A stretch of 64,000 nucleotides of DNA, taken from assembly GCF_030463535.1 (NCBI RefSeq), contig NC_132893.1:29638782-29702781 (forward strand), given 5' to 3'. The first letter of the stretch is position 1; the number at the start of each line of letters is the position of its first letter. This document shows positions 1 to 32,482 of this stretch, one piece after another. The position numbers were made by a program, and so were the translations under genes. Source of the DNA: Salminus brasiliensis. Its lineage: Eukaryota > Chordata > Actinopteri > Characiformes > Bryconidae. The notes below the pieces were generated by a model. That model searched no databases. It was not told where the DNA came from and saw nothing but the letters and a program-made list of their open reading frames with translations.

Positions 1-149
1 TGCAGGAACTCTATCCATGGTGTGTCCTCCGGGCTTCAAACCATGCATGGATGGAAGCGAGTGTATCCTCTATAGGCACGTGTGTGATGGAGAGAAGGAC
101 TGCGTGGATGGGTCTGACGAGAAGAATTGTGAACGCAGATGTAATAAAG
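1..149 (+). CDS. lrp13: lrp13 exon (partial): one LDLa repeat, C2 type
   Basis: The first visible exon is cut by the window edge. It reads through a complete LDLa ([16 protein letters not shown], then HVCDGEKDC and DGSDEKNC) and ends in phase 1 at a GTAAG donor after position 149. It closely matches the exon at 7920-8087 ([27 protein letters not shown]), including the Ala-Gly-Ser/Thr-rich lead-in, so it is the same module type. The exon's acceptor must lie just upstream of the window. Confidence 0.85.
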
Positions 150-3100
150 GTAAGATTAGCACAGAATATGCTTAAATCTCATTTGGACAATTTGGAGCTT
201 GTTGTTGGTGCTAGTAGTACGGGTGTACTACCCCCTAACTTGTGTATATTTTTGAATAGTCAAATTAACACAGTAGGCTAATATGGTGGATTTATATTTG
301 AAGAGCTTTTCAAAGACAGCGCTGTTGCATAGTAGAAGCCATCTACTTATGGTGTCCATACTTTCCCCTGAAGGTTGTTTTGATTCTTGCATTTGAAAAT
401 CAGGGTGCTTTGTAAGCAGGTTTATGGGCTCTATTAGAAACTAGACCAATTACAGTGATTTTTACCATCTCAGATCCCACTAAAACCAACTTGATGCCAT
501 TGCACTACAGATTGAATTGAATCTGTACTTACAGACTGCATTAGGTATACCACATTGTCAATATCCTTTTGTGCTTCTAACAAAAACGTATATACAGTGC
601 CCTCCATAATTATTGGCACCCCTGGTTAAGATGTGTTCTTTAGCTTCTATTATTTAGAGTTTTTTTCTAAATAATATAGGACCACGATGGAAAAAAAGAG
701 TAAAATCCAACCTTTAACTCAAATGAATTTTAAGGGAAAAAAATATCCCTGACTAAGAAATAATTATTCTTCATAAAATCACCTGTTCTACAATTATTGG
801 CACCCCTAACATTTCTTAGGAAATAAATGTAATTAAAGTATTTCTGTCAATTCTACAGTAGTTTACGAAGTTGATCAGAGTATGTAGAAACATTTAATTA
901 ATTCCCTGGGGTATAAATATGACGTGACACAGAGGCCATTTCTCTTCAACATGGGAAAGACAAAGAAACATACCATTCGAGTAAGGCAGATGTGTGTTGA
1001 CCTCCACAAGTCAGGCAATGGTTACAAGAAAATAGCCACTCACCTACACCTGTCCATATCTACTGTCAGAGGAATTATTAAGAAGTTTAAAACAACTGGA
1101 ACAGTGGTAAACAAGTCTGGACGAGGATGCAAGTTTATTTTGCCACCCCACACAGTGAGGAGGATGAATAAAAAGGTCTCCAAAGCTCACTGTTACAGAA
1201 TTACAACAAATGGTAGCTTCTTGGCGCTATCTGCATGCCAACAAGCTGTTTTGGAGGCCTGCACAGAAAAAACCTTTTCTCACTCACAATCATAAACGCA
1301 AACGTTTGGAGTTTGCTAAGCAGTACTGGAACTTCAACTGGGACCGTGTGCTTTGGTCAGACGAAACTAAGATAGAGCTTTTTGGCAACAAATGCTCTAA
1401 GTGGGTCTGGCGTAACGCAAGAGCTGAGTATGCAAAAAAGCACCTCATGCCCACTGTGAAATGTGGGGGAGGATCAGTGATGCTGTGGGCCTGTTTCTCT
1501 TCCAAAGGCCCTGGGAGCCTTGTTAGGGTGCATGGCATCATGAATGCTTTGAAATAACAGGACGTTTTAAAACAAAATCTGGTGGCTTCTGCCCAAAAGC
1601 TGAAGATGGGTCGTCACTAGGTCTTTCAGCAAGATAATGACCCAAAACATATGGCCAAATCTACACAGAAATGGTTCACCACACACAAAATCAAGCTCCT
1701 CCCATGGCCATCTCAGTCCCCAGACCTCAACCCTATTGAAAACCTGTGGGGTGAGCTGAAGAGGAGAGTGCAGAGGAGAGGACACAGGTCGCTGGATGAT
1801 TTAGAGAGATTGTGCAAAGAGGAATGGTCAAAGATTCCTCTATCTGTATTCTCCCATCTTGTGAAACATTATAAGAGAAGATTAGGTGCTGTTTTGTTGG
1901 CAAAAGGAGGTTGTACAAAGTATTAACATCAGGGGTGCCAATAATTGTGGTACACATGATTTGATGTTAAACAATTATTTCTTAATGTGGGATTTTTTCC
2001 TACTGAATAAATTCACTTGAGTTAAAGGTTGGATTTTACTCTTTTTTTCCATCGTGGTCCTATATTATTTAGAAAAAAACTCAATTCATTAGAAGCTAAA
2101 GAACACATCTTAACCAGGGGTGCCTATAATTATGGAGGGCACTGTGTATTAGTGAACCCATAGCTATCTATCAGGGATCCCTGGAGGACCCAGTATACCC
2201 TGTAAACCATTTTTATATTTAGCAGTTGCATTGCCCAGTTTATGATTTTCACTGAACCTGTTTTCTTTTAATCAGGCCAATTTCAGTGTGCCAACGGGAA
2301 GCTGTGCATACACAGGAAGCAGGTGTGTGATGGAACTGCTCACTGTCCGGATCGCTCGGATGAAGTGGATTGCTGTGGCAGTCACTGTGATGAGACTCGC
2401 TGCATTCCAGAAAAATTCCTGTGTGATGGAGAGAGAGACTGTGTAGATGGCACTGATGAAGCGGACTGCTGTGAGTTCTAGGATTTTACACTTTAGCTTT
2501 TTTTATTTTGTTTAAATAAACAGATTTGCTTCTTTTGCTCTATCTATGAAACATTCATTTAAATTCATTTAAATATTGTTGGCAAAATAATTCAAACAGC
2601 AAATATCTAATAATTCAACTTTACTCTCTTATTGTCCTTCTGGGTGTCTTTACAGCAAAAGATAATGAAAGTATTATGGCAAAAGCATCTTCCAAAGATG
2701 TGTCCACACTCTTATCAGCTTGGGCTCCAGTATGTACAAGTCCCTCTGTGCTGTGTAAAGGCACGCTGTTGTGCATTTCCCAGAGTCAGCTCTGTGATGG
2801 CAAGCCTGACTGTCCTGATGGCTCTGATGAGAACTCCTGTATAGGTTCATGTACAAATCTAGGTAACTTGCTTCAACCCTGGTCATTCAGAACTTATATT
2901 GGTGTATATTAGGCCTTAGGTCTGTCAACAGGTTCTGTGTTTTTATTCTGTTTATTTTTAGGCGACTTCCAGTGTAAGGACGGTAGAAAATGTGTTGAGA
3001 GGTACCTAGTCTGCAATGGACGCTTTGACTGCATTGATGGGTCTGATGAGGCAGGTTGCCCCACTGTTGCTGCAGAGGCTGCAGACAAAGCTCTGTTAAG

Positions 3101-6100
3101 GTGCCGTTTGGGTTCAAGGCTTTGTAAGGACGGCACTGACTGCGTCCTGCTTAGTCATGTGTGTGATGGGGAAAAGGACTGTAAGGACGGGTCTGATGAA
3201 GATGGCTGTGACCTTCAGTGTAGTCCAGGTCAGATATCTATTTTAATTATTTTAAATTGTCCAAATAACTGAGTTCTCCAGATGCTTCATCCATTCTTTA
3301 CATAACCTTTTTATGCTTACAAATTAATGCCATTTTCTACTCAGGCCAGTTTCAGTGCATTCGTGGCAAAAAGTGCATTGAGAGGAAGCAGGTCTGTGAT
3401 GGGACTCCTCAGTGTCAGGATGGCTCTGATGAAGCAAACTGCTGGAAACCTACAAGGAGCTGTGCTCTGCGCTGTGACCAAAACAGCCGCTGTATTCCAG
3501 AGGTCTTTATTTGTAATAGAAGGAAGGATTGCTGGGATGGGTCTGATGAATCTGACTGTGGTAAGTGGTTATTTCAGTCAGTGATTTTAACAGGTATGCA
3601 ATGAGCATGCAAATTTGACCTGGTATAGGGTTCTACTTTCGGGGGGTCCATAAAGCATTTGCTGTTCAGTTTATATTTTACAGTTTTCTACTAGTCAAGA
3701 GCATAAAAATGTTTGCTTTGCTTAACTTTGCTTAACCAGTTAATTTATGTGCCCTCAATATCCACAGGCAATTCTGCTGCTTATTTCCGCTGCAAAAGTC
3801 CATCTGTACCCTGTCTAGGAAGCACGCAGTGCATTTCCCAGCGCCAGCTCTGTGATGGAAGAAAGGATTGTTCGGATGGATCTGACGAGAGGCCGTGTAT
3901 TAAGAAGTGTCCCTATGATGGTAGTGAAATCTTCTGACGTTCCAAACAACATCAAAATTACATACAAGTTGATTTTTAATATAAATTGGCACTTTCTGCT
4001 CTAGGTGACTACCTGTGTCGGGACAGACGGAAATGTGTTGACATGAAACAGGTGTGTGATGGCCGTTTTCACTGCACTGATGGCTCTGATGAGGTGGGGT
4101 GTCCCACTGTGGCTACTGACACCACCACCCCAACAGCCCCCTTGAGATGCCGTTTGGGCTTGAAGCCCTGTAAGGATGGAAGTCAGTGCATCCTGTACAG
4201 TCATATGTGTGATGGAGAGGTAGACTGTAAGGATGGATCTGATGAGGAGGGGTGTGATGTTAATTGCAGAACAGGTATGGTGGAACCAAAATGCAAAATT
4301 GCAGTAAAAAAAAAGATCTCCTTTATCTTTACATATGTTTATGTGATTGTTTTACAGGGCAGTTCCAATGCGCTCATGGCAAGAAATGCATTGATGCTAA
4401 ACTTGTGTGTGATGGTAAGCCACAGTGCCAGGATCGCTCTGATGAAATGGGCTGCTTTACACGCACAAAGAGCTGCAGCCACCACTGTGATGATAAGACC
4501 CGCTGTATTCCGGATACATTCCTGTGTGATGGAGAGACCGACTGCGCAGATGGCAGTGATGAAGCAGACTGTGGTACCTTTTTTTTTATTTTTATTTTCC
4601 ATTGAAATAAAAACAAAAATAGCATAGAGGCAATGCCAACTTGCCCATATGTATACATGAATGGATGTGTGGAACCCTGTGATGGACTGGCACCCTGTTC
4701 AGGGGTATTCCTGCCTTGTAGATTGGTCGATAAGTGTTGACAACAGGTTTATAAGTTATAGTCCTGGAAGAGGGCAACAATTCATAGTCTTATAATAAAA
4801 AAAGACTGTATACTTACTGATGTCCTGACTCTGTGAAGGTGTTCTTTGAATTCTTCATTCTTTAAATGAATTAAATGTATTAAATGCTAACCTCTACATT
4901 TCATATTCTAGGTTACCCCACCCAGGTCAGAAGCTGTGATAGCCCCTCTTTGTTGTGTGGAGGGGGGAAATTGTGCATCCCCAGCACTCAGGTGTGTGAC
5001 GGAAACCGTGACTGCCCAGATGGCTTCGATGAAGAGTCTTGCTTGAAAAGATGTCCAAAGAAAGGTTAGGGGAAGCGGCTGCATGCGCAACATGGGCAAA
5101 ATGCTAGAATTGTGATTGTATTGCAGCATGGGTCATGTGTTTTTGTGATGTGCCGTATTTAAAAGGCGCCCTAGAATGCAGAGTGAGTTGATGTAAACAT
5201 AGTAAGTGTGCGATTTACTATGTTCATATGTCGAGGGGTGATCAGCAACAAGATTTACAAGATTTTTTTATGGAGGATTAATGGAGGGGAAACAACGCAA
5301 CCCATAAGCTCTGCTTTTATTGGCCAAGTTATGACACCTGTGAACATGCTAAACCCAGATATTATAGCATAGTTTTAACACTGTAACAAAAACAATGTTC
5401 ATTGTGCCGTTAGCAAGCTGAAGAAATTGTAGCCTATAACCTTTTAGCCTTGGCCCCACTCACTTCCCCAGATTTGGCTTTCTAAAGATCTTACCAGTGT
5501 AAAAAACATTATAAAAATAATTACTTAAATAATAATAAAAGAAAAGCGCCACCCTATTTTGATTTGTTTTAGCTCCAGTTTGTTTCAGCTAAGGTGGTCT
5601 AGTTTGTTTTCAAGTGAGCAGACAATGGAGAAAAGACATGGTTAAAGTTAGCATTAGCTGTTGGTGTCAATCCCTGTTTGCACCCCCCAGCTTTTGCTTC
5701 CTTGCTTGCAGAGTTTGAAGTCCCCTTCTGTTGACACTGGCAGAAGGAAATCTGTGGGTGGGGTTTATGTAAATTTAAGGACTGTACATTTAACGAGTCA
5801 AGACTGTTGCATAACAGTTTCGGTGTTTTATAGGGTGAACATGATCTCTCCACAGATGCAGGTGGCTTTTATAATAACTAGTTTTGTTTGTTTGTTTTTT
5901 TGCTCCCTTATTAAATGCAGGTCAGTTCCTGTGCAAGGACAGGAGAAGGTGCATTGAGAAGTACCAAGTCTGTGACGGACGCTCTGACTGTGCTGATGCC
6001 TCTGATGAGGGGCGTTGCCCCACTGTTGCTGTAACAACCAGCACGGCAGCTCCCTTGAGGTGCCGTTTGGGCTCGAAGCTCTGTAAGGATGGCAGTGAAT

Positions 6101-6798
6101 GCATTTTGCTTAGTCATGTGTGTGATGGAGAGGTGGACTGTAAGGACGGATCCGATGAAGAGGAATGTGAACGTCAGTGCAAAGCCCGTAAGTAGTACAG
6201 CTATGTGGTTTCTAATGAAATCCAGTTCTTCGGATGTGTGACGTTTTTAATGTTTCTTCAGATCAGTTCCACTGTGCTCATGGGAGGATGTGCATAGACA
6301 AGAAGCTGGTCTGTGATGGGACTCCTCAGTGTCAGGATCGCTCTGATGAAATGGGCTGCTTTACTACATCTGAAGGCTGCAGCCACCACTGTGACGAGAA
6401 GACCCGCTGTATTCCAGAAAGCTTCCTGTGCGATGGAGAGAGAGACTGTGCGGACGGCACTGATGAAGCAGGCTGCCGTGAGTAGTGTTGAACAGAAGTG
6501 CACAAAATTATGGGAACAGAAGTGTGATCAGTGTGATTAGAAATGGAGACTGCTGCTGTAAATTCATTGATATCAAGCTCTCCCATTACTACTTTTTGGA
6601 CAGGTTTTAGGCAGGCTCTTCATCTAAGCCATCTGGGGAATTTTAAGGCTGTAGTTGAGGGGAGTGCAATAGGGTGTAGCCTTTGAACTAACTTCAATTA
6701 TCAAGTTGATGTTTCCATTATTTTGTCTGTGACTGGTAGATTATTGTTTATTTGTATTTTTTGGTGTTGCTTGCTGCATCCTTCAGTTTTAATAATGC

Positions 6799-6839
<41 letters not shown>

Positions 6840-9800
6840 TTGTAGTTTGTAAGATTTGTTTTAAGGCTTTGGCTCTTAATGATTCTTGAAAATGTTGTTT
6901 TTGTTTGTTTATTTGTTTGTTTGTTTGTCCCCCCAGCTCCTGCCACTAAAGCTCCTTCATACAAGTCCTCCACTGAAGTGTACTGTAAAAGTCCGTCTGT
7001 GCAGTGTGAAGGAACATCCCTGTGCATCAGTCAGTCTCAGCTGTGTGATGGAAAGTTGGACTGTCCTGATGGGTTTGATGAGGTCCGCTGTATACAGGCA
7101 TGCTCAGATCCAGGTACTATATTAATATGGTCGGGGGGGAGGTGTAAATGGGATAAGAACCAAATCAATTTGTCATTGTATCCAGCCACCATAATGGTTA
7201 TATTTCTAGATTTCATGTCTTTTATTGAATTCATATTCAATTATATACACAGTCATATCAGAATATTATGAATGAACTTCTGTTGGCATCTGTTGTGCTG
7301 ATATGAGTGAATCGCCCCCCCCCCCCCCCAATATCTGCTCTGTGGTGGTCCAACTGGGGTTCATGAGCATTGAAAAACAGGGTGAATATAGATGTGGAAA
7401 TCTCTATAGAATAATTTTTTTTTTCTGGTAAAAAAAACTCACAGGAATGCCATCCTCTAGATGGAATTTCAGGATTCGACTATAGATATTCAATGATTGC
7501 TTTACCCTATCATTTAGTCAGGAGAGAAACCAAGAAGGGCGAGTGGCCATATTACACTGGAATGCTTCTTCCTTATAATATCCTGCATCTCAGTTGCCCT
7601 TTCTTCAGATGAAGACTGATTTTCCTTTTCTAGGCCAGTTCCTGTGTAAGAACAGGAGACTGTGTATTGAGATGACTTTGTTGTGTGACGGCAACTCCGA
7701 CTGCCCTGACGGTTCAGATGAGCTGCGGTGTCCTCCTTGTTCTCGCCACTGTGATGATGGGACGATGTGTCTGACCAGCCAGCAGTTCTGTGATGGCAAG
7801 ATGGACTGTAGAGACGGCTCAGATGAAAGAAACTGCTGTATGTTCTGCTCTGAATAAGTGCAGTTTGAAATTAATGATGTTTTATGTATTGATTCCTATT
7901 TTTTGAATGTCTAAATTAGACAACAGCGAAGGCACAGCTGCAGGATCTTCAACCCTGAGATGCAGACTAGGCTTCAAAGCATGCAGGGATGGGAGTGAGT
8001 GTATCCTCTACAGTCATGTATGTGATGGAGAGAAGGACTGCAAGGACGGGTCGGATGAGAAGGACTGTGAACAGCAGTGTAAAAAGGGTAAAGAGATACC
8101 ATTGTATCTAGCCACCATGATGGTTCTATTCCTAGGTTTAATGTCTTTTTATTTATATTTTATAATTATACACACACATCAGAATATTATGAATGAACTT
8201 GCCCCTTTATGTCTGTGCTGGGATGAGTGAATCAGACGCAGCAGTGCTGCTGAAGTTTTTAGACACCTTGGCATCACTGCTGTACTGAGAACAGTCCACC
8301 AACCGGAAATATCCAGCTAACAGCGTTCTGTGGGGAGTGTCCACTGACCACTTATGAAGGACTAGAGGATGACAACACAAAGTTAGAGAAAGAAGCTCAT
8401 CTGTTGCTGCACAGTTTAATAGACACTCTAGCAGTGAGTGGACACTGTGTTTAAACACCTGCTCTGTGGTTGTCCAGGAGCAAGAAGTACCATTTCTTGC
8501 ATAATCCTGCTTTAATAAGGGAATATATATATAGATCAGTCACATTAGGTTAAATAAGTCCTTGTAAAGCGATTTTATTGCAAGTCAGTTTGGCACAATT
8601 TTATTCCATAAATCATAAACATTTCACACAATGTAAAGAACTGCCAGATTTGTCAAAAACTGCAGAAATGGATACACAAGGTTTGTGGGTCTGGGATAGT
8701 TTTATTAATTTACTGTCTTGCTCATGACATGCTAGCATTTGGGTAAAACTAGAGCTTTGTCCAGCAAAAGTCATTTGCTGTCAAAATTACAAGTCAAAAT
8801 TTCTGTTTTAAACCTTGCTAGTGTGCCCCCAAGTTTTTAAATTCAATTCTGTGTCTGTAATTCCCCCTCTATTATGTAGTGGTGGGCATTGATCTTTCAA
8901 ATGTTGCCACATGTCATGACACAAAGTCCTCTGATTGGCTTTGTGTACCCCAACCGCACCTCAGTAAGCCTTTGCACACTTATTGTTAAACCCCTCAAAT
9001 GAGCTGAAACGGTGGGAGGCGGCAGATTTTAATAGGGGATGAAAAGATGTGTGACATTTGAAGATGGCAGGTCATTTGTACCTCTTACAAGTACTTTACA
9101 TAAAAAAATCAAGCCTAGCATAAATTAAAGATTGTGGACGAGATGTTGGATTTTTAACCCAGTGCAAATCTGCAGCATTCATAGGCTTTAAATGTCGAAG
9201 TGTGGAATAAATGGGCATCTGTAATTAACTAAACTCCCTCAGTAATTAGCAGTTCCATTGTAGTCCACCCATTCTAAAGTATTTAAAAAGTCCTGTTAAA
9301 GCACATCTTCATCCCTGCTGTGTTGCATAGCTTTAGCTCTGTCACTTTCAGGCTATGAAAGTATATACTGTTATTTTTGCATATGAATCTGTGCAGAACT
9401 TCTTCATCTGACAGTACCGGAGTCTGTGTAATAAGAGAACGCTCAGGATATGTTTTCCATGCTTGCAGCTTTTTCATGTGTCTTTGTAACCCACCAGGTC
9501 GCTTTCAGTGTGCTCATGGGAAGATGTGTATAGACATGAAGCAGGTATGTGACGGGACTCCTCAGTGTCAAGATCGCTCTGATGAAATAAACTGCTTTAA
9601 ACTGTCGGAGGATTGCCACCATCACTGTGACAACAGAACTCGTTGCCTCCCTGAAAGCTTCGTCTGCGATGGCGAGAGAGACTGCTTTGATGGGACAGAT
9701 GAGGTTGGCTGTGGTGAGTCAGAAAAAGCATAGGATCTGTAGTACACTCTTAACAAAAAGGTGTTTGGACCCTTGAACCCTTTGGGTCAGTGTTGCTCAA

Positions 9801-12800
9801 CCCTCTGGAGTCTATGAATGTGCAAGCATGCCACATGTGATGTTTCTTGAGTAGAGTCCACCAGTGGGGCAGTGGCCGGTCTGCAGTTTTAGCTCTAGGC
9901 TATTGATGACAGGGTTGTGGGTTTGATACACTGGCGCTGCAAACTTCCACTGTTGGGGCCCTTAAGCAAGGCCCTTCACCCTCTCTGCTCCCCGGACGCT
10001 GGAGTTTGCTACCCACCGCTCTGGGTGTGTGTGCAGAGGACACATTTCGCTGTACGTAGTCCAGTGACAAAAACACTCAAAGTCGTCTTGTGCCTCTCGC
10101 CATATTACATACTGTTTTATTCATATGTTCCATTACTTTTGTGAACCTAAGACTCTGGTATAGTCATTTTAGGCACCAAAACAATCCGTCCACATGAGTA
10201 AAGGTTTGTTTTTTACAGGAAATATTGAGAATTTAAGATTGGACTTCAGATTTTCAGGTTTAGTGTCAGACTATCTCTTTACACAGTGCTTTAGGTTACA
10301 TTGGGTCTCATTATAGAGGAAGCTGACATTGTTCTATAATTTTATTTTATATAAAATATGGGTGTTCTCTTATGCACATGCCTTTTAAAAAACAAATTTA
10401 AGATGATATGCGAAAACCTGGACTCCAGAGGGTTATATTTGGGCTTTATCTGTATTTTTTTTATTTTATTTTTTTTCCCTCATAATCCCTCCTGTCATGT
10501 GATTGTTTTAACAACTCCCCCGCCCGACCACTGCCAGTGTTGCATGCAGTTTTAAAAAGATTTGTTAATATTCAGTGTGAAATCCTTACCTTTTTCCTAA
10601 ATTAGCGCCAGAGCCATGTTCAGTTGGGCATTTCCAGTGTGCCAATGGCCAGTGTGTCTCTGCAAAGCTCCACTGCGATGGTCATGCAGACTGCCGAGAT
10701 CATTCTGATGAGAAAGGCTGTCGCAAACCTCCACACTGCCCCCTGGGAAAGCGTTGTCCTCACAGCCATGGGTGTCTGCTGAGCGAGTGGTTCTGTGATG
10801 GGCATAAGGACTGCACCGATGGCTCTGATGAACAGGTGAGGACATGTCTGAATTCTCCCTGCTTAATCTGAGGTTGTGTCTTATTAGCACACATTTAGCT
10901 AGAATTCTGTGCCAGTATTGCCTTGTCAAGGTCTGTGGAAGTTAATTGTAGTCAGACACCAGTGGGTGATTAACTTCAGACACTGCTGAATAACTCCACT
11001 GTGTAATAAATGAGTGATTTTTGCTTTAGAACTGCAAGACCTCTACATTACAATGTGGGGAGTTCCAGTGGTCATGTGCGTCAAAAACTCAGTGCATTCC
11101 CACATCTTGGAGGTGTGATGGCACAAAGGACTGTAAAGACAAGAGTGATGAAGCTGGATGTGAGTGTATCGTCTGTTTCTGCTGTTTACTAAGCTCTGCT
11201 ATAGAATAGACCTGCACAATATGGGCCAAATCATTTATTGCATTCTAGATAGTTAACTTAACAACTCAACCTGCATTATTTTAAAGAATTATTTATATAT
11301 TTGAGAAAAATGTCCTATTCTATATTATAAAAATTCCCATGATATAGCAGCCCTGCTGTAGTGTCCCTAAAAGGTTTCTGTTCTCTGTCTTTCAGGTGCT
11401 AAAGCAAAATGCCCAAGTCACCTATTTCAGTGTGGGAGTGGGGAGTGTGTAAACCCCAGACTGGGATGTAATGGCATCGCTGACTGTGTGGATGGCTCTG
11501 ATGAGGGTCTAGGTTGTCTCAACAATAACTGTTCCAGCTCACGGAAGCAACAGTGTGAACAGTACTGTATCAGAACTCCCCAAGGAGCGGTTAGTGATTA
11601 TGTATTTTTAGAAAATTGCCCCTCTCAGTAATTTCCCAGCTGAAGCTCTGAAATTGCTGTCCTGATTTCTCTCCAGTATGTAATCTTAATCTGAATTCAG
11701 CTCTTGGTATTCAGTGTTTTGTAGCATAATTAGCTTAAGAGAGGTTGTCAGTGTCTCTTTTCTTGTTCTCCACTTTTCTCTCTCAGAGGTGTGGCTGTCG
11801 GGAAGGGTTTCGACTCCAAGCAGACGGTTTGTCCTGTGTGGATATAGACGAGTGTAGTGAGATTCAGCCTCCTATGTGCAGTCATAAGTGCCATAACACG
11901 CATGGCTCTTATGTCTGCCAGTGTCATCTAGGTTTCCTACTAGAGCCAGATGGCAGAACCTGCAAGAGTCCAGGTGTGTGTGTGTTGTGTTGTGTTGTGT
12001 TGTGTTGTGTTGCTAATAAACTTGTGAAAAGGGGAATCCGGTGGGCAGGCGGTGTTATGCACTACACTAAACCAATCACAGTGTGCATTGTTGCATACAG
12101 GTGAATTTCTAATGGCTTTTACTGTTTCTACATTTTGTCTAGAAAAGCCTCACACTGTCACTTACCTGGTTCTGTATTTTTATGCTGCATGCAGAGGAGC
12201 CCCATCTTTTGGCTGCGGTGCAGTATGAGCTGCTATTTAAGGACCTGCGGAGTGGCAACCTCCAATTACTGCTTCCCCCAGGCCAGACACCCATCTTCTC
12301 TCTGGACTATGACCTGATGGAGCAGAAGCTGTTCTGGGTCAGTCTAGCGGAAAAGAGCATCAAATATGCTGTCCATGGAGACCAGGGCAACATCAAGGCA
12401 CTTGTTAAAGGTCGGGCACAAAAAGCAAGCAATGCACACACACAGCTTCTTTAGTCACTGTAGAGCAGTATTTCCAATAGTATAGGACTCTCTGGAGCAG
12501 ATAAACATGAACCTATTGATAACCTGGCTAATGCCAGGCATGGGCTAGAGGGGTATTAGGCCCCCAGCATTGAGCTGTGGAGCAGTGGAACTGTGTTCTC
12601 TGGATGGGATGTGTCAGATATTTGGGATGTGTTGGATGATGTGGGGGTGGGGGTCATCAAACTTCCTGACCTCATTAATATATTTGTTGCTGAATGCAAT
12701 CAAATCCTCACAGAGTTGCTCCGAGTTCTGCCTGTTCTCCACCAAATCAGTCTTGTCCCTGCATAGGTGTGAAGTCTGACTCTATTGCTGTGGACTGGAT

Positions 12801-15800
12801 TGGAAGGAACCTGTACTGGGTGGATGGCGTTGCTGGACAAATACTGGCTGTGAGGCTTGGTAGCAGCGTTGTGAAGCCTCAGAACTACATGGTAATCCTG
12901 GATGAGGACTTGCAGCAGCCTCGTTCGCTGGTGCTCCAGCCTCAGAAAGGGTGAGCGTCAATTTGGGAAAGTTCCAGGCTGATCGCAGGGGATTTGTTAA
13001 TGTGAATGGTCTTGTCTTACTTTTTTATTTTATTTTTTTAAAGAAAATTATGCCTTTTATATGTAAAAGCTGATATCTCTCACCACCCCTTCCTAATTCC
13101 CTGAACTGTTTTATTTAAATTGAGCTTCTGAATGCATTTGATGTTTCAGGATGATGCTGTGGTCAGAGATTGGCAGTGAGCCGCAGATTGAGCGTGCTGG
13201 CATGGACGGCTCACAGAGGAAGGTGGTGCTCAGCCGTAACCTGCGCTGGCCTGTGGCCTTGGCTGTGGACGTTGTGACGGACCGAATATACTGGACCGAC
13301 GAAAAGCTCCAATGCATAGGTTCAGCAACACTAGATGGAGATGACCTCAGGGTAATGAAAATTCTGGCTGCTGTTTTGTGGAGAAGACTTTAAAAACAAC
13401 AAAGAGCAGTAAGGGAACACTTTGACCGTACTAAGGATAAGAATCTCCTGAGCAAGAAGCGTCCTGAATGTGTTGTGTGGAATCAGATTCTGAAGGTGAT
13501 TCAACTGCAGGTTTAGACTTAGAATTGATGTAAAGTGTTCAGTAAGATTATTAGGTTAAGCTTTTTTATTTTTGCCTGTTTTTTAGGTATGTATTTAGTG
13601 TAGAACTGGGCATCGATGACAATATGCTTTTCTAAGCCTATTGAGGAGACTGTTAGTGCTTAATAAACATTGATCAGCTGCAGGTTTCATTAAAAACAGT
13701 ATACTGGTTTAATTAGATGAAGAGCAGCAGATGTGGGGGGGGCACGAGTCAAGTCAGTACAGGAGAGGATCTGAATAGCAGTTTATAAGAATCTGTCGCT
13801 ACTGATGTGTTCAGTCTGTGATTTACATGTATTGTGATAAATATATCGTGGAAAAAGTCTTTCATTATTATCGTGATATAGTATTTTTACCATATCACCC
13901 AGCCCTGATTTAGTGCATTTAATATTTTTTACTTTCCTCTGTAGCTGCTACAGTTGACTGAGACCTCAGCCCCTTTCTCTGTGGCGGTGTTTAATGACGT
14001 GGTATATTGGTCAGACACCCAGAGAAGAACCATTCGGGGAGCTCAGAAAATCACTGGCAAGAACCTTACTGTTATTCTCAAAAGACCTGGTCAACCATTT
14101 GGACTCAAAGTAAGTATTTATCTTCAATTTAAGGTCATGCAGCTATCCTGTATCCAGTTGAAACAGCAATAAGTTGTACAAAATTCTTGCTTATTTTCCA
14201 GAAGTACTATGCATTTTGTCATCTTTATCCAGGTGGTCCATCCACTCATGCAGCCTAAGGTCCCTAACTCTTGTGAAGGCCTCAAATGCTCCCACATGTG
14301 TCTGCTGACTCCAGGATCGCAAGCCGCATGTCGTTGTCCAACAGGGCTGCTGTTGGCTGAGGATAGGTTCACCTGTAGCTCGCCTGGAGAATCAACCTCT
14401 TCCTTCCTCCTACTCCTGTCTCCTTCTGTGATCACTCAGGTACAAACTGGCCTATCTGTCCTGATGTGTAATCCCAGTTTGAGCTGCATTAGTTTGACCG
14501 AGGCGAGGCATGGTATATGATTATGGATGAGGAAGTGATTCTAGATTCATTTTGGCCACCCCCTTTGATGCCATACAGTCTACACTTTGTTGAAATGTTT
14601 GTAGACACCCCTTCTAATGCATTCAACTACTTTAAGATTCACCCATGAGCAGGTGTCCCAATACTTTTGTCCGTACAGTGTATATGAAAAGTGCTATCTT
14701 GTTGGTCTGTGTAGATCTTCACTAGAAGCCTGCGTGCCAAGACTGGATTAAAACAGTGGCCTGACCACCGTGCCATGGCTCTTCCTGGCATAAACGAAGC
14801 TACAGGTCTAGACCTGGTCCTCAGAGACAGATTGCTGTACCTGGCAGATGCCAGCAAGGCCTCTGTGGCTCAGCTAAAAATGGACAACGCCGGTCTTATG
14901 CCCGAGGGTAGTCCCCTGCAGCTGTCGGATGACACGGTGACCGCTCTGGCAGTAGACTGGATCACACACAACCTATACTGGAGCAGCATTAAGAAGCCCC
15001 AGCTCTACGTCTCTTCACCCGGCTGGAAGTACACCACCGTAGTGATACAGGCCAATCTCCAGGACACCATGTCCATCACCCTGCATCCACCCACAGGCAG
15101 GCTGTGCTTTACTACTGTAGAGCTGGGGGGCAGTGAAACCCTGCCCCAGATTTTGTGCGCCTTCATGAATGGAGAGAACCGGATGGTGCTGTGGACAAAG
15201 GCACAGATGCCCATGTTTCTGACCTTCTCCACTCAGGGCACAACACTTTACTGGGCAGACATTGGTGAGTAGCATTCACATGTTTTCCCTTTACCCTAAT
15301 ATTAGTCGATTGTCTAGATCACAGTTGGTGTCTGAGGTTTTGCAGTAGAACTAAATGGTTACTTTTTACCTGCCCTGTAGCTCCAGTGGATAAACAAAAT
15401 AAAATGATGTTGGGCACCAGATATGTTTTGGCCAGTTAACTACATTTGGGGAAACATGGTCTGGATTCACAGATCGTTTGTAATGTTCTTAAATGCAACC
15501 ATGGAAAGCTTAATGTCTTAAATATTCTAAACTGTTTTTCTTTTCTTATTTAGGCCATTTGTAACAGCGTTTTAGGCTGCATTTTACAAATCATCATATA
15601 ATGCATGTTTCATTCTCCAATATTCAGTTAATCTTTTAAAAGATTTCAGTAAACAGTCCTTTAAGAAAAGGTGAATTGGACCTTTATTTGACTAGTTCAG
15701 CTATTTAAACTGGTCATTTTGGAGGCTGACCTTCTGAACAAGATAAACATAAAACTCTTTGTTTTAGAATTAAATATTAGTTATATATATAGTTATATAT

Positions 15801-15804
15801 TGAG

Positions 15805-15896
<92 letters not shown>

Positions 15897-18800
15897 GGGA
15901 GGGGGGGTACGGCATCTAAGTATGTCTTAAGATACTTGTGGGTCTGGCCCCAGTGTTTTTGAATGGCAAGTGGTTATTATCCAGGATTTATTTGGGTTGT
16001 GTGAAGCAGACATTTTTGTTGCTAGATTAGACACTTCTGAAAAATTATTCCTTTCTTGGACACCTTTGTCATCCATAACAGCAGAAGGGGTCAAAATCCA
16101 TTGCAAGACGTGCTCTGATTTGTTTCACTTTGATCATATAAACCAGTAATAAGCATGTTTATTATTAGAAGACACAAGTTGGTCATAAGTCACTGTTTCA
16201 ATCCAGGATTGGAAAAACAAGACGTTTGTCTTTTAAAATTATATTATAGAGTTGGAATTATGAACAAGGACGTAAACTAACTAGGTGCATAAAACCACTA
16301 GAATGGAGATGTAAAATTTGAGCATGTTCTGTATATACATGAGGTTTTCGTTTTAATAACATTTTATGAATTTTATATAAATGTCTTTCCTGGAATTCAC
16401 TGACTCACTGTGATTAAATAAACAGCTAACTGCCATATATGTATTTTCCGGTCTTAAAGTTCCCACCATCTTCAATGTCCTAACTATTTTTCTGTCCAGT
16501 TTCGATATGATGCACCAGCAGCTGCTGGTTATTTACCAGAATTTGTACTCCTTTCTCCTTCTCCTCCAGCTGCTGAGGTTATTGCTTCTGTGGACATTGA
16601 AGGCTCCAATTACAGAGAGTATAAAACCGGACCTCCTTTAATTGTCTCGTTTGCCCAAAGTGACAATATCCTTTTCTGGGTCACCCTTTACAATGGTAAT
16701 TTCTAAAGCACTTGTTATTCATTAAAAGCAGTTTTGTGGTCATACCAGCAGATGGTGCTATACTGTTGTGTTCATTAAACTGATTCTGTGTTCATTCACC
16801 TCTCTTCATTCAACCTTCTGTGGCACTTGTTTTTCTTCTTGAAAAATGTGCTTGAAATTATTTGTGATGTACATTCCTAGTGCTTTACCTCTGTTTGAAT
16901 GCTATTCAAATTCCTTTTAGGCACAACCACAGTATGGTACAGTGATGGCGTCCAGCCCAAACAGATGTGGTTCGAGGTGCGGACCAACATCGTTGCATTA
17001 AAGGCTTACAGCAAACACAGCCAAAAAGGTATCTGTATGGTCCATTGCTCACATCATCTATTATTCCAATCTTTACTGCTCTTTGTTTTTCTTTCAATCC
17101 CTCCCTTTTTGTCCTGTCATTCCTCTGTGGGAGAGGCTTGAAAAGAGGACAGGTGATCTGATGCATGTTGAAAGACCACATTTGGTAGAACAATTTCATG
17201 AAGGCCTCTCCTTTCATTCAGCTGCTCTCACTCTCACCCAGACATCTCTGCATAGCTCCAGCTGTAGAACTAGTTCAGCAACTGAGTGCATATTTTGCAT
17301 ACAACTTGCTATATTTATCTACCATGTTAAAAAAAAAAGGTGTGCCTTATGTATGATCAGATTATGTCCCACCCCTGCTTGAAACTAGGATCTAACGTAT
17401 GTGCTGAGAACAATGGAGGCTGCAGCCAGCTGTGTCTGGCAAAGCCAGGTGGGCGTACATGCCGCTGTGCGCAGGGCTACCTCGTCGTGAACAAGACCCA
17501 ATGTGTGTCCAGCTTGGAGTGTCCAACAGGCAGTAAGCCATGCAAGAATGGACATGAGTGTCTCTCCAACACCAAGTTTTGTGACCACGTCGCAGACTGC
17601 CCAGATGGCTCAGATGAAGAGGATTGTGAGTTTGATTTTGTATGGACATTAAAATGACACCCCTTTAAACCACTATTAATGAGCAGAGCTTTGGTCAGTG
17701 CTAGTTTTTCTTTCACAATAATGAGAAATACCCTCAAGCAGGGTCGAACTGGTTTAACAAAATTTGATGCCTCTGTTAGGCCAGACTATGGAAATCTTCT
17801 TTTTCTTGTATTTTTGCTGGAGGTCCATTAGAATGGATTTAGGTTCCAAAAATTGTTCTTTTTGCATTTTTTTACAACCATTTTTCAACCTCTCTCTGTC
17901 CCTTAGAATTTACTAAACTGTTCCTGTTAATGCACCTTTAAGTCAGTCAAATATGTATCTAAAACCTGGCTTTAAACATCTATAATATCAGTGTACTGAA
18001 TAAATAACTGCCCTGAATACTATCCAAAGAGAAAAAAATACATATATATTAAATACATAAGAAAATTAAATGTAACTGAGGTTGGGCTTATGATCTCATA
18101 CAAATGCATTAATATGTACATGTTACCTTGTGTACATATTACCATATGTACTAACTTAATATTCATTAAAGCAAGGTAAACTCAGTTTTCCACCATATGA
18201 TCGCTGCTTTATGATGTATCTGATTTGTTCCTCATTTCTTATTACATCAGGTGCATACATGAACACCGGTCAAAGCTTCAAACACAAACCTGCCCCTCAG
18301 CCCTCTTCCTCAGACTCTCCTAGTGTTGCTGGCCCGCCTCAGGACAATGAGGTGTTGGTCCGAACACTGAGTGGTCAGTCCTGTGACACTGAGCTGTGTA
18401 ATGGCAGAGGGCAGTGTGTGATGCAAAATGGAGAGCCGAGCTGCAAGTGTTCGCAGGGTTACAGCGGGACATTCTGTCAGGAAGGAGGATCCAGTAGTGC
18501 TCCTGTTGTCCTTTCTGTCCTCTTCATCTTGGGCGTAGTCATCGCGGCTGCTGTGGTTCTGAAGATGAGGTGTAGATACAGTTTCTTACTCAGGCTTGTC
18601 ACATCCTGAACTGGGAAGTTGAAATGGGTCCCAATAGGACATGGTGATGTAAACTATATTAAATGTTTGAGATGTCTGATGTCTTACCTAAATTTCTTGC
18701 CCCTAGAATATTTGGGCAAAATGCTTAATTAATTAATCTTGATTAATTTATATAATAATAATAATCGTAGTAGTAGTAGTAGTAGTAGTAGTAGTACTAG

Positions 18801-19395
18801 TACTAGTAGTAATTAATAATATTTATATTTAGTATTTTTCTTAATTATATTTTGGCACACAAATCTCACATTTTACATGAATTTCTTGCCCCTAAAATAC
18901 TTGGACAAAATGCTTAGTTATTCTCGAATAATTGAGAAGATATATAATATCATATCATTTTTCCCTTTTTAATCAAGAGTCACCAATCATTTTGTCCAAG
19001 TTTTTTTTTTTTTTTTTTTTTTTTTTCCCTTTCATTGAGATTTTGCTTTCTGGTTGTTTGCTTTTTTTATTTTTTTATTAAATGATCTGGTTCATTTATC
19101 CGTTTACAGAAGAGAGAAAGCTGCTCGGCCCATTGACAAGGAGACGCTTATGAAGGACATAGAAGAGCATGAGGAACCTAAAGGATCTGAGGCCCATCCT
19201 CAAAACTTTGTCAATGAACTCTACGACCCTGAAAAGGAGGTACACTTACTTTCCCCAGAATACCATACTGATTATACTGACTCTGACTAAGCAAAATGTA
19301 AATAAGAAAAGCTGTGAAGTGATCTGTTTCATCGTTGTTGTCTCTCACTAACTTCTTCTCTTCCACAGGAACAAGCAACTGAATCTGTGAACTGA
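1..19395 (+). CDS. lrp13: Giant LDL-receptor-family endocytic receptor, Lrp13-like (5' end outside window)
   Basis: Type I membrane receptor built from about 31 exons with GT-AG sites and consistent phases. Order: 29 LDLa repeats (1-11589), EGF_CA (11787-11973), YWTD propeller (12195-14109), EGF (14233-14439), second propeller (14715-17028), EGF plus LDLa 30 (17389-17625), Ser/Pro linker, EGF and TM helix (18251-18569), cytoplasmic tail (19110-19290, or spliced to 19369-19395). LDLa repeats carry the CDGxxDC and DGSDE calcium-cage residues. LDLR family members bind lipoprotein at the cell surface, are taken up by coated pits and release cargo at low pH through the propeller. Fish Lrp13 is described as an ovarian vitellogenin receptor; assignment to lrp13 rather than another large LRP is from the architecture (many LDLa, two propellers, one terminal LDLa, one EGF, short tail), not from alignment. 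The N-terminus and signal peptide are missing from the window. Confidence 0.8.
595..2144 (+). mobile_element. Tc1/mariner DNA transposon in an lrp13 intron
   Basis: Element of about 1.55 kb flanked by TA. The ends are inverted repeats: CAGTGCCCTCCATAATTATT opens it and its near-complement, ATTATGGAGGGCACTG, closes it. The arms continue for about 150 bases (TTAAAGGTTGGATTTTACTC near the 3' end mirrors the 5' side). It sits in the sense direction in the intron between the first two visible lrp13 exons. Confidence 0.92.
951..1926 (+). pseudogene. Broken Tc1-like transposase
   Basis: Starts [15 protein letters not shown] with a helix-turn-helix region ([20 protein letters not shown]). The catalytic triad is recognisable: WSDETK, then FQQDNDPKH, then [14 protein letters not shown], i.e. 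D, D and E spaced as in Tc1 DD34E enzymes. Reading is interrupted by at least one frameshift near 1200-1290 and by in-frame stops near 1555 and 1617, so no active enzyme is made. Confidence 0.88.
2276..3228 (+). CDS. lrp13: lrp13 LDLa triplet 1 (exons A, B, C; five LDLa repeats)
   Basis: Exon A 2276-2470 encodes two LDLa ([10 protein letters not shown]... and [17 protein letters not shown]). Exon B 2656-2862 encodes one LDLa ([19 protein letters not shown]) with an unusually long Ser/Lys-rich lead-in of about 27 residues. Exon C 2962-3228 encodes two ([18 protein letters not shown] and [16 protein letters not shown]) joined by an Ala-rich spacer. All three exons begin and end in phase 1. In exon C the first repeat has CNG in place of CDG. 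Confidence 0.88.
3345..4274 (+). CDS. lrp13: lrp13 LDLa triplet 2 (exons A, B, C; five LDLa repeats)
   Basis: Exon A 3345-3560 ([19 protein letters not shown] plus [19 protein letters not shown]), exon B 3768-3920 ([19 protein letters not shown]) and exon C 4005-4274 ([18 protein letters not shown], a Thr/Pro spacer, then [18 protein letters not shown]). All are phase 1-1 and match the preceding triplet position by position. The second repeat of exon A has CNRRKDC where CDGExDC is usual, so one calcium-ligand Asp is Asn; this repeat may bind calcium weakly. Confidence 0.88.
4358..6187 (+). CDS. lrp13: lrp13 LDLa triplet 3 (exons A, B, C; five LDLa repeats)
   Basis: Exon A 4358-4573 ([19 protein letters not shown] and [18 protein letters not shown]), exon B 4912-5064 ([25 protein letters not shown] instead of SDExxC) and exon C 5921-6187 ([19 protein letters not shown], Thr/Ala spacer, [18 protein letters not shown]). 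Phase 1-1 throughout. In exon C the first repeat reads DASDE rather than DGSDE. B and C are separated by an 856-bp intron, longer than the equivalent introns of triplets 1 and 2. Confidence 0.88.
5065..5920. other. lrp13 intron, no gene seen
   Basis: 856-bp intron between exons B and C of triplet 3. It contains AT-rich sequence and a pyrimidine/TTTG-rich acceptor approach. No dispersed element was recognised. Confidence 0.5.
6262..8087 (+). CDS. lrp13: lrp13 LDLa unit 4 (A, B, then split C; six LDLa repeats)
   Basis: Exon A 6262-6477 ([37 protein letters not shown]) and exon B 6937-7113 ([19 protein letters not shown]) match earlier triplets. The C position differs: exon 7634-7837 joins a C1-like repeat ([18 protein letters not shown]) to a repeat resembling the second half of an A exon ([19 protein letters not shown]), and the C2 repeat ([18 protein letters not shown]) stands in its own exon, 7920-8087. 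All are phase 1-1. Exon B has FDEVRC instead of SDExxC. Confidence 0.88.
6798..6840. repeat. (ATT)n microsatellite
   Basis: About 14 ATT units in the intron before lrp13 exon B of unit 4. A TTTG-rich run at about 6895-6928 precedes the exon acceptor. Confidence 0.9.
7165..7400. repeat. Dispersed repeat block in lrp13 intron, copy 1
   Basis: This stretch (GCCACCATAATGGTTATATT ... CAGAATATTATGAATGAAC) is similar by eye to 8098-8230 in the same orientation. Both then run into the same fish dispersed element (TGCTGATATGAGTGAATC ... GCTCTGTGGTGGTCC). In this copy the middle of the element is replaced by a run of about 18 C at 7314-7331. Confidence 0.6.
8098..8490. repeat. Dispersed repeat block in lrp13 intron, copy 2
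   Basis: Counterpart of 7165-7400. From about 8215 it carries the fuller dispersed element (GAATCAGACGCAGCAGTGCT, GTCCACCAACCGGAAATATC, GTGAGTGGACACTGTGTTTA). I know this element as widespread in ostariophysan fish genomes, from memory. Confidence 0.6.
8491..9497. other. lrp13 intron remainder, no gene
   Basis: AT-rich sequence between the repeat block and the A-type exon at 9498. I see no exon with supported splice sites here; short open frames lack them. Confidence 0.5.
9498..11589 (+). CDS. lrp13: lrp13 last LDLa exons before the EGF (six LDLa repeats)
   Basis: 9498-9713 is another A-type exon ([37 protein letters not shown]). The next three exons are not part of the triplet series: 10606-10835 has two LDLa ([17 protein letters not shown] and [15 protein letters not shown], phase 1 to 0), 11030-11159 one ([18 protein letters not shown], phase 0 to 1) and 11396-11589 one ([21 protein letters not shown] for CDG) followed by a Cys-rich segment ([16 protein letters not shown]) that starts the EGF region. 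These exons look like the conserved, older end of the ligand-binding domain. Confidence 0.87.
9850..10085 (+). mobile_element. tRNA-derived SINE in lrp13 intron
   Basis: The head has an A-box-like stretch (TTTTAGCTCTAGGCTATTGA) and a B-box-like GGGTTGTGGGTTTGATACA, followed by the body CTTAAGCAAGGCCCTTCACC and CTCTGCTCCCCGGACGCTG. This pattern is typical of fish tRNA SINEs. The copy is diverged and shows no clear target-site duplication by eye. Confidence 0.6.
11787..11973 (+). CDS. lrp13: lrp13 calcium-binding EGF exon
   Basis: The exon finishes one EGF ([16 protein letters not shown]) and encodes a full EGF_CA module opened by DIDECSE, with the six cysteines in order through [16 protein letters not shown]. 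The DIDEC start is the usual calcium-binding signature. It lies exactly where LDLR-family receptors place the EGF pair between the LDLa cluster and the first beta-propeller. Entry is phase 0 and exit phase 1 at a GTGTG donor that runs into a (TGTTG)n repeat. Confidence 0.88.
12195..14109 (+). CDS. lrp13: lrp13 first YWTD beta-propeller (four exons)
   Basis: Exons 12195-12410, 12767-12950, 13150-13351 and 13945-14109. YWTD-type blades are visible as [61 protein letters not shown] and [15 protein letters not shown]. In LDLR-family receptors this six-bladed propeller drives acid-dependent ligand release in endosomes. Splice phases agree across all four exons. Intron 12411-12766 holds a dispersed repeat that runs close to the acceptor of the second exon. 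Confidence 0.85.
12430..12750 (-). mobile_element. Tc1-like non-autonomous repeat, family R1, copy 1
   Basis: Shares the family landmarks GACTCTCTGGAGCAGAT, GAGCTGTGGAGCAGTGGAA and TTGCTGAATGCAATCAAAT. It lies in the lrp13 intron just before the acceptor of the second propeller exon. Confidence 0.75.
13352..13944. other. lrp13 intron with possible hAT-like remnant
   Basis: The end of this intron (ATTGTGATAAATATATCGTG ... CATATCACCCAGCCCTG) resembles terminal sequence often seen on fish hAT-derived repeats, from memory. No coding signal. Confidence 0.3.
14233..14439 (+). CDS. lrp13: lrp13 EGF exon between the two propellers
   Basis: Encodes an EGF with [14 protein letters not shown], then [16 protein letters not shown], the usual post-propeller EGF form. 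The exon then adds a hydrophobic, Ser-rich run ([16 protein letters not shown]) before its donor. Both ends are phase 0. The Leu-rich run is odd for an extracellular linker, but it is too short for a membrane segment. Confidence 0.8.
14571..14690 (-). mobile_element. R1 repeat, copy 2, end-to-end remnant
   Basis: Only the two family ends remain, joined directly: CACCCCTTCTAATGCATTCA on one side and AGGTGTCCCAATACTTTTGT on the other. The 300-400 bp middle found in other copies is missing. Confidence 0.7.
14715..17028 (+). CDS. lrp13: lrp13 second, degenerate YWTD propeller (three exons)
   Basis: Exons 14715-15264 (the longest in the window), 16570-16695 and 16921-17028. Blade signatures are weaker than in the first propeller: [47 protein letters not shown] and TTVWYSDG. 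Phases fit (0 to 1, then 1-1, 1-1). The 1.3-kb intron 15265-16569 holds an 85-bp (TA)n run. The acceptor at 16569 follows a CTCCTTCTCCTCCAG tract. Confidence 0.82.
15808..15892. repeat. (TA)n microsatellite, about 85 bp
   Basis: Uninterrupted TA dinucleotides in the intron inside the second propeller, followed by a G-rich stretch. It may form a cruciform and is likely length-variable. Confidence 0.95.
17389..17625 (+). CDS. lrp13: lrp13 EGF plus terminal LDLa exon
   Basis: Encodes an EGF ([17 protein letters not shown], then [15 protein letters not shown]) followed by one isolated LDLa ([31 protein letters not shown]). A single LDLa placed after the last propeller, close to the membrane, is unlike LDLR and VLDLR and is one reason to favour an Lrp13-type receptor. 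Phase 1 at both ends. Confidence 0.85.
18251..18569 (+). CDS. lrp13: lrp13 linker, EGF and transmembrane exon
   Basis: Begins with a Ser/Pro-rich linker of about 40 residues ([17 protein letters not shown]), probably O-glycosylated, followed by an EGF with cysteines at [12 protein letters not shown] and [12 protein letters not shown]. The transmembrane helix [20 protein letters not shown] follows, ending in the stop-transfer residues KMR. The exon exits in phase 2. The whole stalk-EGF-TM unit is one exon. Confidence 0.87.
18766..18810. repeat. (TAG)n microsatellite
   Basis: About 15 TAG/TAC units in the intron between the TM and tail exons of lrp13. A T-run lies at 19001-19026 in the same intron. 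Confidence 0.9.
19110..19290 (+). CDS. lrp13: lrp13 cytoplasmic tail exon with two possible ends
   Basis: After the acceptor at 19109 the tail reads [20 protein letters not shown], an acidic stretch, then [17 protein letters not shown] fits the FxNxxY sorting signal seen as FDNPVY in LDLR, but has Glu where Pro is usual. At 19240 there is a GTACAC donor, so splicing to 19369-19395 would end the protein EQATESVN. Read-through of the donor stays open and ends [16 protein letters not shown] at 19290. Confidence 0.8.
19369..19395 (+). CDS. lrp13: lrp13 alternative last coding exon
   Basis: A TTCTCTTCCACAG acceptor at 19368 leads to codons EQATESVN and a TGA. It joins in phase 0 to the donor at 19239/19240. 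It is only eight codons long, and the upstream read-through form makes it optional. Confidence 0.6.
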   Translation, partial: EQATESVN

Positions 19396-23240: not shown

Positions 23241-23554
23241 AGCTTTCAGTGGGCTGTAGGAAGAAAGTGGGACATGTCTGGCCTTGCTAACTCCGACCCT
23301 CTGAAGGACAGATGGGGTCAGAGCGTGATGGACTGCAGTGCTCAGCGGTGCAATAGCCATGGGGACTGTGTGACGGTGAATGGGTTGCCAGCGTGTGAAT
23401 GTCTGCTTGGATACACGGGGGACACCTGCAGGGAGACCGTCAATGGTGGCCTGTCCGTTCCACTCACATTGGGGTGCCTGGGGGTCCTTTGTGGCCTCAT
23501 CATCCTGGCCTTCCTGTTTGCATATTTTCGACAAAAGAGAAAAGCCAAAAGAAG
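23241..23554 (+). CDS. Orphan EGF-transmembrane exon, second receptor or lrp13-like remnant
   Basis: After a CTCCTTGTAG acceptor the frame encodes a linker, one EGF with six cysteines (CSAQRCNSHGDC, CECLLGYTGDTC) and a transmembrane helix (LTLGCLGVLCGLIILAFLFA) with a basic stop-transfer run (RQKRKAKRR). It exits in phase 2 at GTGTGA, exactly as the lrp13 EGF-TM exon does, and the EGF layout is the same. It cannot simply replace the lrp13 exon: the phase-1 acceptor option would create TGA with the preceding lrp13 exon. It is therefore the end of another receptor-type gene or a decayed tandem copy. I found no LDLa or propeller exons for it. Confidence 0.55.
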
Positions 23555-31660: not shown

Positions 31661-32482
31661 TCACAGATCAGCGTCGTAGGGTCTGGCGTTGAAGGAGGGG
31701 TTCACAGACCCTTTGTCGCGGGCCTTTGCTCTGGGGAAGTCGTCCAGGTCGTCGTCGAGCGAGCGTCTGGAGTACGGCGCGCTGGAGCTGCTGCGGGTGG
31801 AGACGCTCGGCACGTTGACGCGCGGGTAGGGTCTCGGCGCTGGCCTTGTGGTTGTGGTGGTGGGTCTGGCCAGTGCGGCGGAGTTGGGCTTCTCCCCGCG
31901 GTTCTTCCCACCGCAGCACCTGCAGACGCCCACGAAGAGCACGACGCCGGCCAGCACCTCCATGATGCCCCCGATGTAGCCCAGCACGATGCAGTAGCCC
32001 ACGGTGATGCTCGGGCTCTGCGGGTTGGAGAAGGTCGTGGTCGTGTTGAGCGAGGGCAGCACATGCGTGTACCACGCAATGGGGATGATGGTCAGCACGC
32101 CCGAGCAGAAGATCAGCACGCCCCCAAAGGACGTGAGGGGCCAGCGGGGCGGGCGGTCTCGCCAGCAGCGCGCCCCGGGGGTGACCACCGCGAGGCCGAT
32201 CAGGGTCACGATGAGCGAGGCGACCATCATGCCCTGCGCGACGGGGATGATCTGGTTGCTGAAGTAAACGTTGTCCGTGGAGCGCAGGTTGCACGTCACC
32301 GAGCTGGACGTGGTGAAGCTCTTGCAGATGTCCCAGATGCCCTGGTTGAGCACCGTGTCGCTCGACTGGCCGGCCAGGTTGGCCAGGGTGCGCCAGTTGG
32401 GCGCCACCGTGCTGGTCAGGTCCAGGATCCAGCCGCACGGAGCCAGAACCAGGCCGAAGATGATGATGCCCGGGGTGCGCAT
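31661..32482 (-). CDS. Claudin-23-like tight-junction protein, GC-rich copy
   Basis: Intronless 273-residue tetraspan protein. The start at 32482 is chosen because MRTPGIIIFGLVLAPCGWIL matches the start of its neighbour; an in-frame ATG 13 codons upstream has no counterpart there. TM1 covers residues 6-25. The first extracellular loop has the claudin signature W...GIWDIC...C (GLW changed to GIW). TM2, TM3 and TM4 follow, TM4 as YCIVLGYIGGIMEVLAGVVL. A long basic, Ser-rich C-tail ends PYDADL. Claudins seal the paracellular route between epithelial cells. The WRT motif, CRCCGG after TM4 and acidic-Leu end resemble claudin-23. Codon third positions are mostly G or C, unlike the rest of the window. 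Confidence 0.88.
   Translation of the reverse strand: MRTPGIIIFGLVLAPCGWILDLTSTVAPNWRTLANLAGQSSDTVLNQGIWDICKSFTTSSSVTCNLRSTDNVYFSNQIIPVAQGMMVASLIVTLIGLAVVTPGARCWRDRPPRWPLTSFGGVLIFCSGVLTIIPIAWYTHVLPSLNTTTTFSNPQSPSITVGYCIVLGYIGGIMEVLAGVVLFVGVCRCCGGKNRGEKPNSAALARPTTTTTRPAPRPYPRVNVPSVSTRSSSSAPYSRRSLDDDLDDFPRAKARDKGSVNPSFNARPYDADL

Follow-up and report, generated by a model that had tools for sequence, protein, structure and literature searches.

The DNA analyzed here is a 64,000-nt stretch of the Salminus brasiliensis genome (contig NC_132893.1, positions 29,638,782 to 29,702,781; hereafter the window), which opens inside a plus-strand gene with an unusually long array of LDLa repeats. We propose, with a probability of roughly 70% for the explanation as a whole, that this gene is teleost lrp13 and that its ligand-binding domain was built by old tandem copying of a three-exon block carrying five LDLa. 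The exon model was assembled by reading splice sites and frames. Its 31 exons give a continuous frame that is already open at the window edge and runs for 2094 residues before a stop codon at 19395, and every intron has GT/AG ends. The array runs in the order C0b, A1 B1 C1, A2 B2 C2, A3 B3 C3, A4 B4 C4a C4b, A5, and is followed by four unique LDLa (D1-D3), EGF, a YWTD propeller, EGF, a degenerate propeller and EGF, then one LDLa, EGF, a transmembrane helix (assigned by eye) and a cytoplasmic tail (Table 1). The window thus contains 24 array, four unique and one membrane-proximal LDLa; as the window edge cuts the gene, the N-terminal number is at least 28. Outside the N-terminal array there are 909 residues.

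The repeats have six cysteines and an acidic DxSDE-type motif, and in each of three stretches submitted to Pfam they matched PF00057 (5, 3, and 4 repeats). The EGF-propeller unit was matched by PF00058 (YWTD) and EGF-type families in the stretches tested, and the single C-terminal ("+1") LDLa at about 17517-17625 by PF00057 (E 9.6e-07 in that frame). The second propeller was recognized only against solved structures, with LRP2, LRP4, and LRP6 first; its main exon gave no Pfam match. The tail carries the motif FVNELY, with Glu in the place of Pro in FxNPxY, an internalization motif that is usual, not universal, in the LDL receptor family.

An earlier annotation of the sequence (the original prediction) had described an A-B-C cassette with 2, 1, and 2 LDLa at 2276..8087. 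These limits are exact, being the start of A1 and the end of C4b, but the array reaches further on both sides, to C0b (1-149) and A5 (9498-9713). The A-B-C order is intact three times and recurs a fourth time, as had been claimed. The fourth C is more than a split exon: with two LDLa in C4a and one in C4b, unit 4 has six modules instead of five, which brings the interval to 21 LDLa rather than 20. Phase 1-1 is found in 14/14 complete exons from A1 to A5, all with AG/GT sites and lengths divisible by three; C0b, of which only the end is visible, is excluded from the complete-exon counts.

Table 1. Exons and other features of the LDLa-array gene in the window.
Feature	Position	Strand	Content	Basis or remark
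C0b	1..149	+	3' part of C-type exon; 1 LDLa and first Cys of next module	cut by window edge; nearest C4b
Insert in C0b|A1 intron	590..2149	+	222-nt terminal inverted repeats, 87% alike	transposase frame interrupted, two overlapping open reading frames
A1	2276..2470	+	2 LDLa	
B1	2656..2862	+	1 LDLa, long linker	
C1	2962..3228	+	2 LDLa	
A2	3345..3560	+	2 LDLa	
B2	3768..3920	+	1 LDLa	
C2	4005..4274	+	2 LDLa	
A3	4358..4573	+	2 LDLa	
B3	4912..5064	+	1 LDLa	
C3	5921..6187	+	2 LDLa	
A4	6262..6477	+	2 LDLa	
B4	6937..7113	+	1 LDLa	
C4a	7634..7837	+	2 LDLa, 11 cysteines	junction class like A
C4b	7920..8087	+	1 LDLa (C-second type)	junction class like B
A5	9498..9713	+	2 LDLa	final repeat-array exon
D1-D3	10606-10835, 11030-11159, 11396-11589	+	four unique LDLa and start of EGF part; only neighboring aromatic pair (Trp-Trp)	Pfam, module list, exon model
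EGF, first YWTD beta-propeller, EGF	11787..14439	+	six exons	Pfam, solved-structure matches, exon model
Second, degenerate beta-propeller	14715..17028	+	three exons	solved-structure matches, exon model
EGF and C-terminal "+1" LDLa	17389..17625	+	single LDLa from ~17517	Pfam, exon model
EGF, transmembrane helix (by eye), tail with FVNELY	18251..19395	+	three exons; stop 19395	exon model

The strict order and the clustering of modules according to their position in the cassette support the original prediction that the array grew as a block of five modules was copied. Twenty of the 28 modules were typed, leaving out those of C0b, C4a, C4b, and D1-D3. Over variable columns, mean identity is 0.48-0.73 within a position and 0.18-0.36 between positions; the difference of 0.29 was reached in 0/5000 label shuffles (largest 0.11), a significance that is overstated because the shuffles ignore the common descent of the copies. 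In a tree of the 28 modules (29 columns), the first modules of the A exons (A-1) form one group (97/95), the second (A-2) a less firm one (91/77), and the B modules group with the first module of C4a (83/91); of the 25 inner branches, 16 are open, and several terminal branches are long. In C4a, the first module is about equally near to the first C modules (0.41) and to B (0.42), and the second has no clear type. The fingerprints first given for the positions are in part looser than stated. CxSPSxxC is present in 4/4 B exons and LRCRLG in 4/5 second C modules, CISQxQLCDG in 3/4 B exons and CxDxRxCV in 2/4 first C modules, and for the A exons QFxCxHGKxCI is found in 1/5 and HCDxxTRCIP in 2/5.

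Three further derivations were considered. A fusion of an older AB pair into C, suggested by the junction classes of C4a and C4b, is unsupported: identities of C-1 to A-1 (0.33) and C-2 to B (0.33) fall inside the between-type range. A copied A-2 as the source of the second C4a module was dropped (mean identity 0.30 to A-2, against 0.35 to C-2 and 0.33 to B). C0b is 0.81 identical to C4b and on average 0.62 to the C-2 modules of C1-C3; a supercassette duplication drawn from this likeness has no backing from A1 and A5, since A1 is nearest to A4.

The junctions fall into two classes. The A|B intron lies between modules, while the B|C and C|A introns lie inside a module, after its first cysteine. 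Cysteine counts are as this junction model expects in 14/14 exons, and the native junctions agree. It had been argued that phase 1-1 lets exons be gained or lost without damage. The phase is real but insufficient, because the B|C and C|A introns fall within a module: loss of one exon keeps the module register in only 3/14 cases (C1, C2, C3), compared with 9/12 for three exons. The figures for two, four, five, and six exons are 7/13, 4/11, 5/10, and 6/9. The three-exon block is a natural safe unit in any register, and AB and C are also closed units.

One alternative starts from this last point. In place of a single three-exon cassette, it builds the array from AB (3 LDLa) and C (2 LDLa) as separately mobile units, or lets units exchange with one another; it is compatible with the Lrp13 identity. 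Each of these units is closed in junction class, C1, C2, and C3 are the only exons whose single loss is tolerated, and the tolerated two-exon losses include the four AB pairs. The exon trees also bear on it. They were built for cassettes 1-4, the first module of C4a joined with C4b serving as the C exon of unit 4. Agreement of the A, B, and C trees had been put forward as a check on the cassette; their favorites differ, with A preferring the split 14|23 (65% of resamplings; 12|34 34%, 13|24 1.2%), and B and C preferring 13|24 (B: 53%, 14|23 29%, 12|34 18%; C: 70%, 12|34 29%, 14|23 1.2%). The different splits of A and C count in favor of this alternative. On the other hand, the window shows strict alternation, neither ABAB nor CC being present, and the shared split 12|34 keeps some support in all three trees (34, 18, and 29% for A, B, and C). 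We consider this two-unit history doubtful.

The assignment to Lrp13, which is the most likely one, is drawn from layout and length, not from alignment, and expression and ligand would follow from that assignment. In the parts of the literature covered here, Lrp13 is characterized by one LDLa after the propellers, and its N-terminal repeats number 7 in eel, striped bass, white perch, and yellow croaker, 10 in amberjack, and 13 in cutthroat trout (PMC9935665). For the eel protein, of 1234 residues and 7+1 repeats (PMC9935665), we estimate about 950 residues outside the N-terminal array (~40 per repeat), compared with 909 here. White perch VtgAa binds mainly Lrp13 (PMC4651544), lrp13 also occurs in a newt, where it is high in ovary, and in two copies in a pufferfish (PMC11772764), and no lrp13 was found in a swordfish transcriptome (PMC6517582). 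The gene described here shares with teleost Lrp13, a vitellogenin receptor of oocytes, the N-terminal LDLa array, the EGF and YWTD parts, one C-terminal LDLa and the transmembrane helix. It differs in repeat number: the published counts seen do not exceed 13, while the N-terminal LDLa here number at least 28, of which 24 belong to a periodic cassette. That the Lrp13 repeat number varies by species is established; this window adds the anatomy of the cassette, its cysteine register and the shortage of docking aromatics described below. Neither a count above 13 nor such a cassette was seen in the literature on lrp13 and on LDLa exon duplication, as far as the consulted portions, often partial, extend. 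LRP2 (megalin) has the same LDLa, EGF, and propeller modules, with several LDLa clusters and more propellers. LDLR and VLDLR (LR7, LR8) likewise have an LDLa array leading into an EGF-propeller unit, with 7 or 8 modules. The LDLR introns lie between modules, whereas two of the three cassette introns here cut a module after Cys1.

The modules were also compared at residues predicted to contact ligand. The residue at the lysine-docking position is Q or L in A-1, F in A-2, Q in B, Q or L in C-1, and H in C-2. Without counting this histidine, an aromatic is present in 5/24 array modules, all Phe in A-2 and none Trp. In 12 LRP2 modules taken from the solved-structure match (not a random sample of LRP2), the aromatic is present in 10 (Fisher p 0.0008). 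The only neighboring aromatic pair in the 27 pairs among 28 modules is Trp-Trp at D1.2-D2.1. A lysine-pocket rule requiring an acid at +3 as well is passed by 4/29 modules; since this is stricter than the published wording, we rely on the aromatic alone. In a check by eye for calcium-defective modules, the acid at +1 or +5 is missing in 8/24 array modules, namely A-1 in 5/5 copies, C1.1, C2.1, and A2.2. Mean net charge is -0.8 for A-1, -5.8 for A-2, -3.0 for B, -0.75 for C-1, and -6.0 for C-2, an unevenness that 0/10000 shuffles equaled (Kruskal p 0.0016; 23 modules, C4a.2 left out). The suggestion that cassette number tunes affinity is weakened, as few array modules keep the known lysine-docking aromatic. 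On this reading, extra cassettes would add reach and acidic contacts set at intervals, not further canonical docking pairs.

Several results weigh against the explanation we prefer, and those concerning identity favor another one, that the gene is a different fish LRP related to LRP2 or LRP4. With 28 or more N-terminal LDLa, the gene is far outside the published 7-13 and would be an outlier if it is Lrp13, and the identity was assigned by layout and length in a comparison that included no Lrp13 sequence. LRP2, followed by LRP4 for the EGF-propeller part, is the best solved-structure match, by summed scores that favor long repetitive chains; no Lrp13 structure is among the PDB matches listed. 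The gene rchy1, upstream of lrp13 in eel, zebrafish, and medaka (PMC9935665), would fall outside the window. Downstream, smad2, susd1, and kcnv2b were not recognized by eye in the list of open reading frames (ORFs) or by Pfam on three short stretches, which gave no neighbor gene and one match below the cut-off only. In the array itself, the A and C trees favor different histories, and the synonymous divergence (dS) was undefined in 2/19 whole-exon pairs and in more of the half-exon pairs. The array does not differ significantly from LRP2 in missing acids at +5 (p 0.08) or in mean charge (p 0.13; 11 of the 12 LRP2 modules). The absence of neighboring aromatics inside the array is expected in 36% of random placements of five; being common by chance, it indicates that the signal is the low number of aromatics and not their spacing. 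Against a different LRP stand the two propellers with one LDLa after them and the non-array length near that estimated for eel Lrp13. Eel Lrp13 was itself automatically annotated as Lrp4, and its best match was a proLrp1-like record. We regard a different LRP as unlikely.

The amplification is old, as indicated by the unrelated introns together with high divergence at fourfold-degenerate sites. Exon copies differ at 19-33% (A), 35-47% (B), and 25-28% (C) of bases. Pooled fourfold mismatch is 63/122 for A, 34/52 for B, and 27/59 for C (0.46-0.65), where base composition predicts 0.746 at saturation; the Jukes-Cantor divergences are 0.87, 1.54, and 0.71, from non-independent pairs. The introns share matches of 14-46 nt that follow no cassette pattern, and one 144-nt segment, 78% alike, at 7174-7313 (B4|C4a intron) and 8100-8233 (C4b|A5 intron). 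This segment, of which no further copy is found elsewhere in the window, may be a mobile element or a trace of old duplication. Silent rates in teleosts are a few per billion per year, and at this rough rate the divergence points to an age on the order of 100 million years. The nonsynonymous divergence (dN) is below dS in 17/19 whole-exon pairs, those with computable dS. The original prediction also took the amplification to be recent, perhaps still variable between individuals and tuning ligand size or affinity, a reading with which the strict ABC order, phase 1-1 and the mostly safe loss of three-exon blocks agree; it is very unlikely given the exon and intron divergence above, and without homologous introns unequal crossing-over would probably not occur now.

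We suggest the following course for Lrp13. An endocytic receptor of this type would take vitellogenin into growing oocytes, and its ligand-binding domain would have been enlarged long ago by tandem copying of the three-exon, five-LDLa block. Since the cassette ends agree in phase and cysteine register, each insertion would have kept every disulfide. Purifying selection may then have held the character of each position, near-neutral in A-1 and C-1, acidic in A-2 and C-2, and intermediate in B. The resulting array would be a long, flexible, periodically acidic arm that could make many weak contacts with large lysine-rich ligands, and the canonical lysine-docking pair probably sits in the four unique modules beside the EGF part. 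More tentatively, the arm may have become a composite repeat in this fish lineage, its spread enabled by the matching ends. Each cassette would add near-neutral spacers and, set between them, two strongly acidic modules: A-2, whose docking residue is Phe, and C-2, where it is His. Length and spacing, and not the number of docking doublets, would then be selected, perhaps for reaching several sites on one vitellogenin dimer. The examined parts of the papers do not state how the Lrp13 repeat number changes between fishes. The gene suggests one route, the insertion of whole three-exon blocks closed in frame and disulfide register, by which such receptors can lengthen stepwise. With most of its added modules lacking the docking aromatic, the array would also allow a direct check on whether binding rises with the number of LDLa modules.

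A few other elements were observed in the window. The insert in the C0b|A1 intron looks Tc1-like by eye, as does another interrupted transposase-like stretch (27207-28024, plus strand); the two are 68% similar over 161 nt. Downstream of the array gene, a plus-strand ORF with EGF and transmembrane parts (23241-23552) is 39% identical over 67 residues to the EGF-transmembrane end of that gene, and is perhaps the tail of a tandem relative or a remnant. Exon C2 with a few intron codons had no relatives in viral contigs; in genome contigs its 20 matching loci all carry titles of bacteria, with no fish among them. These 20 records, mostly delta-proteobacteria or Myxococcota by title, hold stretches 34-50% identical to the C2 exon, indicating that LDLa-like repeats occur there too.

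Two adjacent claudin-family ORFs, each one open frame, lie on the minus strand at 31664-32572 and 34736-35485. A plus-strand Ser/Thr-rich mucin-like ORF of 244 residues (45530-46264) has no Pfam match and is a candidate for PARM1, a neighbor of RCHY1 in human. Short Pro/Tyr/Phe-rich ORFs at 57545-57781 (minus) and 62905-63198 (plus), with no Pfam match above the cut-off, are presumed candidates for SCPP matrix genes. On the minus strand, a fragment at 49623-50081 resembles by eye the reverse transcriptase of a long interspersed nuclear element (LINE), and a UnaL2 LINE 3' element is present at 58307-58360.

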